DNA of 64,000 bases. Source: Thermodesulfobacterium sp. GTDB taxonomy: Bacteria > Desulfobacterota > Thermodesulfobacteria > Thermodesulfobacteriales > Thermodesulfobacteriaceae. Within the stretch, counting starts at the first letter, position 1. Each line of letters begins with the position of its first letter. Below, one piece after another: positions 15,666 to 20,501 of the stretch. The stretch covers positions 1-64,000 of the forward strand of contig JACDNX010000007.1 in the NCBI GenBank assembly GCA_017656385.1, read 5' to 3'. The notes beneath the pieces were generated by a model, which saw nothing but the letters and a program-made list of their open reading frames with translations, was not told the DNA's origin and did no database searches. Position numbers and translations under genes: made by a program.

Positions 15666-15685
15666 TTTCAATTTTGGTTCAAAAA

Positions 15686-16231
15686 ATGGACAAAATTTTT
15701 ATTAAATTTGTTTTTTGCAATTTAAAAGAAGAACAACTAAAAAAATTGAGGGAGCATCTTGCAGATGTTTATTTTTCAGAGCTGGATGTATCCTATTTTT
15801 TCTTTGACATAGCCAGAGCTTATAATTTCAAGAGAAATCAGTATTTGGCAGATATTATACTCAGAGAGGCGGAAAGATTTAAGAAAAATCCTCAAGAAAA
15901 GTGGCTTCTTGTGGTAGATGTAGATCTTTATGCTTCTGGTTTAAATTTCATTTTTGGTCAGGCAGATCCAAGATCAGGAATAGGAATAATTTCTTTAACA
16001 AGGTTAAAACCTGAATTTTACAAACAAAAACCAGATGAAAAACTTTTTTTAGAAAGGATTTTAAAAGAGGCTACCCATGAATTAGGTCATCTTTTTTATC
16101 TGCCTCATTGTGAAAATCCTGAATGTGTAATGAGTTTTTCTAATTCTATTTTAGATACAGATAAAAAAGATAGTTACTTATGTTTAACTTGCAAACATAT
16201 TTTAAGAGTCTATAGAGGGATAAAAACTTAA
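15686..16231 (+). CDS. Archaemetzincin-like zinc metalloprotease (atypical zinc site)
   Basis: A 181-aa protein of the archaemetzincin (AmzA) family. The C-terminal signature is mostly intact: HELGHLFYLPHC with Zn-binding histidines, then 'ENPECVMSFSNS' (the Met-turn) and 'CLTCKHIL', giving the family's second four-Cys zinc site. The family pattern HExxHxxGxxHC has Tyr here in place of the conserved Gly (codon tat). The frame is open from a TTG at 15674, but I chose the ATG at 15686 as the conventional start; neither has a clear ribosome site. Substrates of bacterial archaemetzincins are unknown. It stands alone between the diguanylate cyclase and the cytochrome operon. Confidence 0.85.
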   Translation: MDKIFIKFVFCNLKEEQLKKLREHLADVYFSELDVSYFFFDIARAYNFKRNQYLADIILREAERFKKNPQEKWLLVVDVDLYASGLNFIFGQADPRSGIGIISLTRLKPEFYKQKPDEKLFLERILKEATHELGHLFYLPHCENPECVMSFSNSILDTDKKDSYLCLTCKHILRVYRGIKT

Positions 16232-16416: not shown

Positions 16417-19131
16417 ATGAAATTAAATAATAAACTTTTTTATATCTTTGCAGGATGTTTATTCTTGCTGATTTTTGTAAGTTTTTATTTATTTTCTGAT
16501 AATATTACTTTTGCAAAAAGTGAAAACAGCTGTTTAAGATGTCATTCAGTGAAGAGGCTTCCCAAGGTTCTTTCCAATGGTGAGAAGATGGATCTTTATG
16601 TAGATAGAGAAAAATTTTCAAATTCCGTTCATGGAGATTTTAGTTGCACAGATTGTCATATAGATATTGACACTTCCACTCATCCAAGACCTATTAAAAT
16701 AGAGAGTAAATTAGCATACGCTAAGGAAGTTTCTCAAAACTGTGTAAACTGTCACATGGAAGATAGTTTGTCTCCCATTCATCAGGGAATACTAAAAGAG
16801 GGGAAATTATCTTGTGCAGAGTGCCACGGTTCTCACTATATAACACCAGTTTCTCAGTTAAAAGAAAAATCTGAAAAGTGTTTAAGATGTCATTCAGTGA
16901 AGAGGCTTCCCAAGGTTCTTTCCAATGGTGAGAAGATGGATCTTTATGTAGATAGAGAAAAATTTTCAAATTCCGTTCATGGTAAATTGGGGTGTCTCTT
17001 TTGCCATAAGGATATAGATCCTTTAGCTCATCCTAAACCTGTTATAATAGAGAGCAAGAGAGCATATGGTAACAAAATCTTCAAAAATTGTCTGAACTGT
17101 CATCCTTTAAATTCAATATCCCCTATCCATAAAGATTTTCTTAAAGAAGATAGAATGGTTTGTTTAGGATGTCATGGTAATCACTATATAAAATCAAAAG
17201 CTCAGTGGAGTAAGGAAACTAATAAGTGTTTAAGATGTCATTCAGTGAAGAGGCTTCCGAAGGTTCTTTCCAATGGTGAAAAGATGGATCTTTATGTGGA
17301 TAAAGAAAAATTTAAAAAGACAGTTCATACAGATGTAGGCTGTTGGGCATGCCATCAGGGAATTAACTTTTCCAATCATCCTCGTCCGTTGTTTATAGAA
17401 AGTAAAAGAAAATTTACTGAAAAGGTTACTTCTGGGTGTTTCAGATGTCATCCGAAGAATGTTCTTTCAGTACATCCTGGACACGCGAAGATAATAAATA
17501 TTTCAACATTTGTGTGTGTTGATTGCCATGGATATCACAAAAATCAATCAGTTAAAGCATGGAAAAAGAAAGTTAGTACTAATGAATACTGTATGAGTTG
17601 TCACAAATTTAATATAGTAAAAAAACTACCAAGTAAAGAAAAACTGAGTATGAAAGTTGATCTTTCCCAGATTGAACATTCTGTTCATGCAGGATTTAGC
17701 TGTACCGACTGTCATATGGATTTTTCAAAAGATGAACATCCTGTTTATAAATTTAAAAATAGAAAAGAATATACCGTAAATTTTTCTCGTAATATTTGTC
17801 AAACTTGTCATACTGATGAAGAATTAAAGGAAAATCCTGTGCATTACTCTATATCAAAGACTGCTTCCTGTGTGGAATGCCATGGAGCTCATAATGTAAA
17901 ACCTGCAAAGCTCCCTGCAGGGGTATCAGAAAAAGAATATTGTATGTCTTGTCATTCTGGAGCTTTGACCAAAAAGATGGAAAATGGAGAAAAACTCTCT
18001 CTTAAAGTAGACGAAAGTCAAATTCTGCATTCAGTTCATGGTAAATTAAAATGTTCTGACTGTCATAAAGGATATTCTACTAAATCACACCCTATAAGAA
18101 GTTTTAAATCTATTTCAGAATATAGAAGCAAAGCCCAAGAAGTGTGTAGAAATTGTCACGCTAAAGAAGTAAGTGAATACAATAGCAGTATTCATAAAGC
18201 TTTGGTTTCAAAAGGATATCCAGAGGCCCCTGATTGTCTGAGTTGTCATGGTTATCACGGAGTAAGTAGAATTTCTACTGATGATATTGCAAGATATAAT
18301 CTCTGCTCAAGCTGTCATAGTAAAGAGAGTGATAGTTTTAAGGAAAGTATTCATTATAAAGCCTTTGAAGAAGGTAAGGAAGGGGCACCTGTATGTTCAA
18401 GTTGTCACGGAGCTCATAAGGTATTACCTACCAGTGTAGCCAATTTAAAAGATTCCTGTATAAGTTGTCATAGTGAAGCAAAGAGTTATCACAATAAATG
18501 GCTATATAATCCACCATTTAAGTTAGAAAGTTTTGTTGATGTCCATTTTAATGGAAGCTCCTGTTCTGCATGTCATGCATCTGGTGAAAAAGCTGTTATT
18601 TTAACTTTAGCTACCTCAGAAAGCAAAGTCTTAACTCTTGAAGAACTGTCTAAACTTACAAATTGGGATATAGAAGAAATAAGAGCAAAACTTGATGTAA
18701 ATGGTGATAATTTAGTTCAGAAAGAAGAACTTTGGGAATTTTTAGGTGATCTCAAAGGATTGGTAAAAGTTGAGCTAAAAGGTAGATTAGATATGGTTAA
18801 TAAAAATGATGCTCACAAGATAATTTCTAAAAAGAAGGCTATAAAAGATTGTGCCTTCTGTCATGATCCAAAAGCTCAGTTTGTAGGAAGACTTGAAATT
18901 AATAAAGAAGAAGGAAAGGCAGAAAGAATAAGCGTAGAAAGAAGTGCTGTTAATTCAGCCTATGCTATACCTAACATTAAAGATTTCTATGTATTGGGAT
19001 TGACCAAAATAGATGTTCTGGATACTCTATTTGTAATTGCTTTAATTGCTGGTATTGGGGTGGTGGCAGGACATATCTTTTTAAGAATCGTTACCATTCC
19101 TGTTAGGAGAAAGAAAAAGGAGGGACAATAA
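16417..19131 (+). CDS. 25-heme c-type cytochrome with C-terminal membrane anchor
   Basis: A 904-aa exported multiheme cytochrome with 25 CXXCH haem-attachment motifs by my count. An N-terminal signal anchor (about 8-28) precedes the haems. Hemes 1-12 lie in three tandem modules of exactly 116 residues (348 nt), each opening with the same CLRCHSVKRLPKVLSNGEK segment. Hemes 13-16 and 17-20 form two more divergent four-heme units; hemes 21-25 follow. Between hemes 24 and 25 is an EF-hand-like loop DVNGDNLVQKEE (760-771). The C-terminus has one membrane helix and a basic tail, so the haem domain should face the periplasm, tethered to the inner membrane. It overlaps the cytochrome b gene by 1 nt. 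Likely role: a long electron wire between the quinone pool and periplasmic carriers; physiological donor and acceptor are unknown. Confidence 0.93.
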   Translation: MKLNNKLFYIFAGCLFLLIFVSFYLFSDNITFAKSENSCLRCHSVKRLPKVLSNGEKMDLYVDREKFSNSVHGDFSCTDCHIDIDTSTHPRPIKIESKLAYAKEVSQNCVNCHMEDSLSPIHQGILKEGKLSCAECHGSHYITPVSQLKEKSEKCLRCHSVKRLPKVLSNGEKMDLYVDREKFSNSVHGKLGCLFCHKDIDPLAHPKPVIIESKRAYGNKIFKNCLNCHPLNSISPIHKDFLKEDRMVCLGCHGNHYIKSKAQWSKETNKCLRCHSVKRLPKVLSNGEKMDLYVDKEKFKKTVHTDVGCWACHQGINFSNHPRPLFIESKRKFTEKVTSGCFRCHPKNVLSVHPGHAKIINISTFVCVDCHGYHKNQSVKAWKKKVSTNEYCMSCHKFNIVKKLPSKEKLSMKVDLSQIEHSVHAGFSCTDCHMDFSKDEHPVYKFKNRKEYTVNFSRNICQTCHTDEELKENPVHYSISKTASCVECHGAHNVKPAKLPAGVSEKEYCMSCHSGALTKKMENGEKLSLKVDESQILHSVHGKLKCSDCHKGYSTKSHPIRSFKSISEYRSKAQEVCRNCHAKEVSEYNSSIHKALVSKGYPEAPDCLSCHGYHGVSRISTDDIARYNLCSSCHSKESDSFKESIHYKAFEEGKEGAPVCSSCHGAHKVLPTSVANLKDSCISCHSEAKSYHNKWLYNPPFKLESFVDVHFNGSSCSACHASGEKAVILTLATSESKVLTLEELSKLTNWDIEEIRAKLDVNGDNLVQKEELWEFLGDLKGLVKVELKGRLDMVNKNDAHKIISKKKAIKDCAFCHDPKAQFVGRLEINKEEGKAERISVERSAVNSAYAIPNIKDFYVLGLTKIDVLDTLFVIALIAGIGVVAGHIFLRIVTIPVRRKKKEGQ
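16531..17313 (+). repeat. Three-copy near-identical DNA repeat inside the multiheme cytochrome gene
   Basis: A 104-nt stretch at 16531-16634 recurs without a mismatch at 16879-16982. It recurs again with a few substitutions from 17227 to about 17313. The copies are exactly 348 nt apart and in frame. Outside them the modules have diverged, so the identical blocks point to recent duplication or gene conversion limited to the first quarter of each module. Confidence 0.9.
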
Positions 19132-19763
19132 TGAAGAGAGTTTATTTACACCCTATACCTGTTAGAATTTGGCATTGGATAAATGCCATTTGTTTTATCA
19201 TACTAATTATTACAGGTTTACAAATAAGATTGGGAGATAAATTGGGTTTGATGTCTTTTCAAACTGCGGTTAAAATACATAGCTGGCTGGGGTTTGTTTT
19301 AATTGCTAATTACTTTATATGGTTCATTTATTACTTTGCCACTTTGAAGTTTTTCAAGATTTATTTACCTCCTTTCTGGAGACCCATTGAATTTACCAAA
19401 AAGGCTTTGCGTCAAGCTAAGTATTATGGATATGGAATAATGGTAGGAGATAAGAATCCTCATCACCCAACCCCTGATAATAAATTCAATCCTTTACAAC
19501 AGGTTGCCTATTTTTTGATTATGATAGTTTGTATCCCTCTTCAGCTTATTACAGGGCTTATTTTATGGGATCCTGTGAAATTTCAATTTTTAGGTAATCT
19601 TTTAGGGGGAATTCAGATTGTCTCTTTAATTCATGTAGGGTTATGGATATTTTTTGCCGCTTTTATAATAGTTCATTTCTATTTAGCAACCTTGGGACAT
19701 ACAGTCTTAGCACATATTATTGCTATGTTTACTGGATATGAAGAAGAACACGAAGAACATTAA
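19131..19763 (+). CDS. Membrane cytochrome b subunit (HydC/cytochrome b561-like)
   Basis: A 210-aa protein with four hydrophobic helices and paired histidines that could bind two b haems. Features are 'HPIPVRIWHWINAICF' in helix 1, 'VKIHSWLGFVL' in helix 2, and 'SLIHVGLWIFF' and 'IVHFYLATLGHT' in the last helix. It resembles cytochrome b subunits of hydrogenases, thiosulfate reductases and formate dehydrogenases, which exchange electrons with the menaquinone pool. An AAAGGAGGG ribosome site lies inside the 25-heme gene, and the TAATG overlap ties it to that protein. It most likely anchors the large cytochrome to the quinone pool (inference from pairing). Confidence 0.88.
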   Translation: MKRVYLHPIPVRIWHWINAICFIILIITGLQIRLGDKLGLMSFQTAVKIHSWLGFVLIANYFIWFIYYFATLKFFKIYLPPFWRPIEFTKKALRQAKYYGYGIMVGDKNPHHPTPDNKFNPLQQVAYFLIMIVCIPLQLITGLILWDPVKFQFLGNLLGGIQIVSLIHVGLWIFFAAFIIVHFYLATLGHTVLAHIIAMFTGYEEEHEEH

Positions 19764-19784: not shown

Positions 19785-20162
19785 ATGAAATTAAAAAAAT
19801 TTTTGATAGGATTTTTTAGTGGAGCTTTTTTACTTGGAGGAACATATCTTTTGGCACAGCAAATTCCTGAAGAATGCGTTGTAGATGTAGGTGGAAGAAT
19901 GGCACCTGTTAAATTTTCCCATGCTAAACATGCAACAGAATATAAGATAGATTGTAAAACATGCCATCATAAAGCACAAGATCCTACTAAAGGAGTTCAA
20001 AAGTGTGTTGAATGTCATGGATTAAAAGGAGGAAAAGAAGGAGCACCAAAGGCAATGCTTGCTTATCATAAAAATTGTGTTAATTGCCACAAAAAAGTCA
20101 ATGCTGAACAGCAGAAAAAAGCTCCAACCAAATGTAACGAGTGTCATAAAAAAGGATCTTAA
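19785..20162 (+). CDS. Periplasmic class III cytochrome c3 (tetraheme)
   Basis: A 125-aa exported protein with an N-terminal signal sequence (to about residue 25) and four CXXCH sites: CKTCH, CVECH, CVNCH and CNECH. The preceding 'VKFSHAKH' supplies the two distal His ligands typical of cytochrome c3. Such proteins shuttle electrons in the periplasm of sulfate reducers. It follows the cytochrome b gene by 21 nt with a strong GGGAGGTG ribosome site. It is the probable soluble partner of the 25-heme/cytochrome b complex. A bidirectional terminator follows. Confidence 0.92.
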   Translation: MKLKKFLIGFFSGAFLLGGTYLLAQQIPEECVVDVGGRMAPVKFSHAKHATEYKIDCKTCHHKAQDPTKGVQKCVECHGLKGGKEGAPKAMLAYHKNCVNCHKKVNAEQQKKAPTKCNECHKKGS

Positions 20163-20196
20163 TTAGAAATTATCTGAGATTTAACCAATTTTGAAT

Positions 20197-20222
20197 AAAA
20201 GAGGGGGGTATTCCCCTCTTTT
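20197..20222. terminator. Bidirectional rho-independent terminator
   Basis: A 10-bp perfect stem AAAAGAGGGG/CCCCTCTTTT with a 6-nt loop (GGTATT) lies between the cytochrome c3 stop and the convergent small ORF. The stem has A-runs on one side and T-runs on the other, so it can terminate transcription from both directions. Confidence 0.85.
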
Positions 20223-20225
20223 ATT

Positions 20226-20501
20226 TTAATATTCTTCTTCTATTTCTTCTGTTTCTTCTTCATATAGATATTCTTCTTGTATATTTGACCTTAATTCTTC
20301 AGAAGAAGGAAAGGTATGAGGCACTCTTATGATTTCTCTTAGCTGATCAAGCTCTAAGGGTAGGTCTTCGTCTTTTTGGCAGATTTCACATATTTTTATA
20401 TGTTTATTTATCAATTCCATCATCTTAATAGGAGAAAGAGTAAAATTTCTTACTTCCTGATACCAATCTCTAATTAAATTTTTTAATCTCTGACACTGCA
20501 T
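20226..20501 (-). CDS. Small Cys/His protein with acidic tail, anti-sigma-like zinc motif
   Basis: A 91-aa protein I cannot assign to a named family. It begins MQCQRLKNLIRDWYQEV and continues to an HxxxCxxC motif (HIKICEIC, about residues 33-40). Together with Cys3 this resembles the zinc site of ZAS-type anti-sigma factors. The last 20 residues are strongly acidic (Glu-rich). No membrane helix is present, so if it is a regulator it is soluble. No sigma factor gene is nearby. Convergent with the cytochrome operon and divergent from trpS. Confidence 0.7.
   Translation of the reverse strand: MQCQRLKNLIRDWYQEVRNFTLSPIKMMELINKHIKICEICQKDEDLPLELDQLREIIRVPHTFPSSEELRSNIQEEYLYEEETEEIEEEY

Follow-up and report, generated by a model that had tools for sequence, protein, structure and literature searches.

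A 25-haem c-type cytochrome of the thermophilic sulfate reducer Thermodesulfobacterium carries three homologous four-haem modules in its N-terminal part, and the heads of these modules have very probably been subject to recurrent gene conversion, in several species independently, while the module tails evolve on their own. The tracts are restricted to the heads, recur across module pairs and lineages, and are independent of selection on the protein.

Repeated module heads in a 25-haem cytochrome

The window (the whole 64,000-nt stretch that we analysed) comes from genome G000, which is assembled in 44 contigs. Its cytochrome gene encodes, from the N to the C terminus, a signal or anchor helix, the three modules (M1-M3), a 13-haem part and a membrane helix, and it belongs to a three-gene unit with the following features:

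16417..19131, + strand: 25-haem c-type cytochrome gene, 904 aa (ORF with 25 CXXCH; multihaem Pfam and NCBIfam matches)
16531..16634, + strand: M1 head, haem 1 plus about 30 residues, identical to the M2 head
16636..16878, + strand: M1 tail, haems 2-4, clustering with congener M1 tails (tail tree, AU tests)
16879..16982, + strand: M2 head, 104/104 nt the same as the M1 head
16984..17226, + strand: M2 tail, haems 6-8, clustering with congener M2 tails (tail tree, AU tests)
17227..17330, + strand: M3 head, 11/104 nt different, reverting after its first 87 nt to M3-type sequence (KKTVH)
17332..17589, + strand: M3 tail, haems 10-12, clustering with congener M3 tails (tail tree)
17590..18144, + strand: additional units of four-haem type, with heads at 17590 and 17941 and no exchange with M1-M3 (haem spacings; 39% protein match only)
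18145..19128, + strand: CbcA-like core with seven haems, an EF-hand-like segment and a C-terminal membrane helix at about 19015-19116 (profile search; PDB 28pb match)
18145, 18235, 18304, 18394, 18457, 18562 and 18850, + strand: the last seven haems, in the core
19131..19763, + strand: cytochrome b subunit, CbcB-like (PF01292; adjoins the cytochrome gene in congeners)
19785..20162, + strand: tetrahaem class III cytochrome c, a likely periplasmic partner (PF02085)
20193..20226, + strand: terminator-like hairpin closing the three-gene unit

Directly upstream lies a gene for an archaemetzincin-family metalloprotease (15674-16231), and several congeners have a gene of similar size next to their cytochrome gene or close by.

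Haem spacings are 38/32/24/22 in both M1 and M2 and 38/32/26/25 in M3, and successive modules are 348 and 348 nt (116 codons) apart. Direct comparison of the identical run at 16531-16634 and 16879-16982 finds a mismatch at the very next base on either side; 4 of the 11 differences of the M3 head fall within its first 87 nt. The sequence-only reading had reported this perfect repeat, a third and slightly diverged copy starting at 17227, the equal spacing and the count of 25 haems, and all four observations hold. It had also placed the first haem in the repeated block, correctly, but with 28 further residues, where we count about 30, or 34.7 codons in all. In related multihaem genes outside the genus the longest exact internal repeats reach just 10-23 nt, so that a 104-nt repeat is far beyond chance. 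Searches of the G000 genome for head copies outside the gene, as possible donors, found none, and coarse windows showed no shift in composition at the heads of the kind expected from foreign DNA.

Heads and tails across the genus

We aligned 28 modules and divided each into a 35-codon head and a tail. The M1 and M2 heads of G000 differ by one synonymous and no amino-acid change in 35 codons (pS 0.05), and their tails are far apart (pS 0.67, pN 0.32), with dS among the G000 tails above 1.5 by the Nei-Gojobori method, near synonymous saturation. This is the comparison inside and outside the block that had been proposed as a check, and it agrees with the earlier statement that the rest of each module has diverged. 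Codon choice points the same way: the gene's own codon usage predicts 17.6/34 identical codons in the G000 heads, and 34/34 are observed (P 1e-13), with comparable departures for the tracts of G009 (P 1e-9) and G010 (P 4e-10); in M1-M2 pairs without a tract, codon identity is as expected from codon usage. For codons specifying the same amino acid, heads and tails contrast within genomes (Fisher p 8e-6 in G000, 0.002 in G009, 0.003 in G013 and 0.07 in G010 alone) and do not between orthologs (all p > 0.2), where heads are roughly as diverged as tails. Since synonymous sites are identical too, the identity of the heads is not the product of selection at the protein level.

Trees of the two parts disagree. 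In the tail tree, modules cluster by position, needing 3 changes where the minimum possible is 2, and M3 is separated by one branch (support 98/94). The head tree joins heads of the same genome and needs 10 changes to sort them by position, although its bootstrap support is moderate, the heads being short (105 nt). AU tests reject a single clade of the M1 heads of four species (p 1.7e-4) and, weakly, orthology of the M2 and M3 heads (p 0.047 and 0.033); for tails they reject pairing within a genome, namely M1+M2 in G000 (p 0.0025), M1+M3 in G009 (1e-34) and M1+M2 in G010 (1e-23).

Exact tracts were found in three lineages, and the exchanged pair varies among them. They comprise 104 nt between M1 and M2 in G000 (where M3 is also involved), 87 nt between M1 and M3 in G009 with a different M2, and, in the clade of G010, G013, G001 and G007, 74 nt between M1 and M2. 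Within this clade the G010 tract has 5 additional nucleotides upstream, G013 and G007 show one mismatch within the 74 nt, and in G001 two contigs both terminate within the same 74-nt head. Each tract starts on the first nucleotide of the codon for the haem-1 Cys or no more than 5 nt from there. In the cytochrome genes of G005, G004, G002 and G008, searched for a tract, exact internal repeats do not exceed 20 nt.

Each lineage's heads have their own sequence. Between G010 and G001 (M1 of the latter taken from contig C3), 9 sites differ between the species with both copies agreeing within each genome; because these sites changed jointly, with 0 differences within a genome, copying continued after the two species split. 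Had the G000 copies evolved apart ever since G000 and G012 separated (about 12% nucleotide divergence in the shared part), the probability of 0/104 differences would be about 2e-6, so the latest copying event in G000 probably postdates that separation. The G000 M2 head is 85% identical to the M1 head of G005 and 71% to its M2 head. With G005 as the sole reference for direction, this suggests that in G000 the M2 head was probably overwritten from M1.

Sharp-edged identity that includes synonymous sites, tracts that follow the genome while their flanks follow orthology, and recurrence in three lineages are together the marks of gene conversion, and the earlier proposal of ongoing homogenisation is strongly supported and extended to other species. 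We propose that the first 74-104 nt of a module, covering haem 1, a beta-hairpin and the probable distal-His region, are repeatedly overwritten from a sister module of the same gene by non-reciprocal recombination, presumably through RecA-type homologous conversion. That tracts begin at or near this Cys codon probably reflects upstream linkers too unlike to pair, and they would stop where divergence sets in, heterology being the likely limit. Copying may thereby keep the heads alike enough for renewed recombination, with the tails now beyond its reach. G000 has two MutS-family genes; their presence would limit exchange between unlike copies and to that extent counts against conversion. A mismatch-repair defect, considered as a cause, found no support given these two genes.

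Gene conversion and concerted evolution are known from bacteria (Santoyo & Romero 2005, as cited in PMC9205934), and in bacterial repeats and assembly-line modules homogenised units are more alike within a genome than orthologous units are (PMC9205934). The present case differs from these in concerning a multihaem cytochrome, in tracts of merely 74-104 nt between different module pairs, and in tract starts that, in three lineages, lie at most 5 nt from the codon for the haem-1 Cys. In the full text of open-licence PMC articles we found no paper containing both "multiheme cytochrome" and "gene conversion", and a search for literature on concerted evolution in multihaem cytochromes returned nothing relevant.

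Module number and alternative explanations

The cytochrome gene is present in 11 of 14 genomes of the genus (G000 and ten congeners); in G003, G006 and G011 a search for additional modules, or for modules encoded separately, found neither it nor the cytochrome b. A single gene encodes all 25 haems in four genomes (G000, G004, G005, G009), and G010, G013 and G007 encode 12+13 haems in two adjacent genes, as does G001, there interrupted by a contig end. G002 has 8+13 haems, also split; G008 has 21 and G012 has 17, both fused. At loci L023, L027, L029 and L030 the same cytochrome is encoded either by one gene or by a pair of neighbours divided after module 3. The 13-haem gene of G007 (L032:4689-6391) is broken into frames of 421 aa and 139 aa and is intact in the nearly identical G013; either the assembly is wrong there or the frameshift is real. 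Across the genus haem spacings hardly vary, so the N-terminal part amounts to one, two or three four-haem modules ahead of a constant 13-haem part.

We built a locus tree from the C-terminal part, the cytochrome b and TrpS, with G008 set as outgroup for drawing. It places the two-module G008 and G002 outside both three-module clades (87/89) and pairs the one-module G012 with G000 as its sister (100/100); with TrpS alone, G002 takes another position (80/81). On this tree, one change from two to three modules deep in the genus would suffice, with moderate support, and a gain is favoured; three modules predate the split of the three-module congeners. The single module of G012 has a different look. 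Within the gene, nucleotide identity between G000 and G012 drops from 83-94% in the C-terminal half to 52-72% in the N-terminal one, and it averages 88% farther downstream; the G012 tail stays apart from the other nine M3 tails; and a search of G012 for more modules, in this gene or another, found a single such module only. Caution is due, as the G012 gene starts 48 nt from a contig end, but it looks as if a diverged one-module allele was imported and replaced the N-terminal half (L026:49-2052 compared with 16417-19131 of the window).

These data bear on the suggestion that unequal crossing-over at the identical heads adds or deletes 348-nt modules and so tunes the length of a molecular wire, homogenisation being a by-product. 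Identical in-frame heads would indeed remove or insert exactly one four-haem module, and congeners with 1, 2 or 3 modules exist (17, 21 and 25 haems, some split as 8+13 or 12+13). However, the tails hold positional orthology across species, which argues that the array has not been turned over; the cytochrome-gene tree requires a single deep change from two to three modules; the G012 module sits in a diverged N-terminal half resembling an imported allele; and the G009 exchange between M1 and M3, with M2 untouched, is conversion. We regard crossing-over as unlikely. The hypothesis of an adjustable wire is thus half supported: module number does differ between species, and nothing in these data shows crossover at the heads.

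It is quite unlikely that heads were acquired horizontally, through recombination with other strains or species, and not from a sister module. The apparent replacement in G012 indicates that divergent alleles do enter the gene, and sequence alone separates a strain-derived head from intragenic conversion incompletely. Against import, the incoming head always equals another head of the same genome, so that a donor would need identical heads itself, and head sequences are lineage-specific. There is a small chance that the identity of the heads is itself selected, the heads serving as in-frame docking sites at which four-haem modules are swapped, lost or gained.

It is very unlikely that short reads were merged from similar heads into one consensus. 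The fragmented G000 assembly and a repeat length near usual read and k-mer sizes would allow it, but the third head was kept distinct in G000, the single-contig genomes G010 and G013 show the same pattern, and the two G001 contigs end in the same head, as a true repeat predicts. Selection on the head protein, whether strong purifying or convergent, is scarcely credible as the cause of the likeness, even though the head includes a haem motif and a His that is probably a ligand: synonymous codons are identical, and heads are no better conserved between species than tails. A recent duplication of M1 into M2 followed by fast tail divergence, for which tandem modules at equal spacing might speak, can be dismissed with equal firmness: the M2 tail sits with its M2 counterparts from other species (M1+M2 rejected, AU p 2.5e-3), and synonymous sites in the tails approach saturation. 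The sequence-only reading had likewise denied a single fresh whole-module duplication.

A probable lengthened CbcA-like conduit

Among 297 genomes of the phylum, a profile built from the C-terminal 299 residues (18235-19128) found relatives in 33, spread over 26 genera. At 14 of 16 inspected loci a CXXCH-rich ORF lies directly beside a cytochrome b; these ORFs have seven haems (about 350-400 aa), 13 haems (G064, G101), or 13 haems with the core doubled. The doubled form, with two profile matches per ORF beside cytochrome b, occurs at L069:3112-5175, L073:3270-5258, L074:3722-5734 and L075:3890-5872. Two loci have genes for a seven-haem core and cytochrome b and, after them, a gene for 12 haems spaced in triplets (about 28/15/32), at L077:5731-6750 and L078:5710-6708.

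Geobacter CbcA is a seven-haem cytochrome next to the b-type CbcB and passes electrons from the quinone pool (PMC10470525); for syntrophic sulfate reducers it has been suggested that CbcBA operates in the direction of quinone (PMC10553843). The core described here is homologous to ORFs that immediately precede a b-type cytochrome in other genera of the phylum, and it too is followed by one (PF01292), a layout that matches the bc-type quinone oxidoreductases CbcBA and, in G. metallireducens, CbcABCDE. However, the present protein has 25 haems, not 7, through an N-terminal extension with four-haem modules, which makes it CbcA-like and not CbcA, and its neighbour is a tetrahaem c3 cytochrome, not cbcC-E. 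The core matches PDB 28pb ("Cytochrome c", 278 aa; E 3e-18, seven CXXCH counted in the alignment); the match takes in the EF-hand-like segment, and 28pb has no N-terminal tandem modules. Profile matches to DmsE/MtrA-type decahaem and NrfB-type cytochromes are below cut-off only: TIGR03508 (DmsE family decahaem) scores 121.3 bits, under its curated cut-off of 192.2. A DmsE-family assignment was rejected on this score and on the membrane anchor and b-type partner, which point elsewhere.

AlphaFold predictions for the full-length cytochrome (pTM 0.36) and for M1-M3 (pTM 0.37) were poor and yielded no usable fold, with head segments among the better-scored stretches; these models gave no structural reason for the head boundary, and Foldseek with the whole-protein model found no match. 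From the homologous core, the neighbouring cytochrome b and the membrane helix, the gene most likely encodes a lengthened, CbcA-like, inner-membrane-anchored periplasmic electron conduit, the likeness to CbcA being one of layout and description. The seven-haem core and cytochrome b would exchange electrons with menaquinone at the inner membrane, and the N-terminal modules would take them further out into the periplasm. From a published estimate of 24 haems per 18-nm chain (PMC11520253), each four-haem module may be worth about 3 nm.

Head-restricted gene conversion makes a patchwork of a long multihaem conductor as it evolves: one third of each module is shared through copying and the remainder is free. 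Multihaem cytochrome trees built on whole repeats can mislead. If the heads were selected docking sites, populations would carry wires of several lengths. Across species there is a natural series of 13, 17, 21 and 25 haems upon one anchored core, in which electron-transfer distance can be tested per module.
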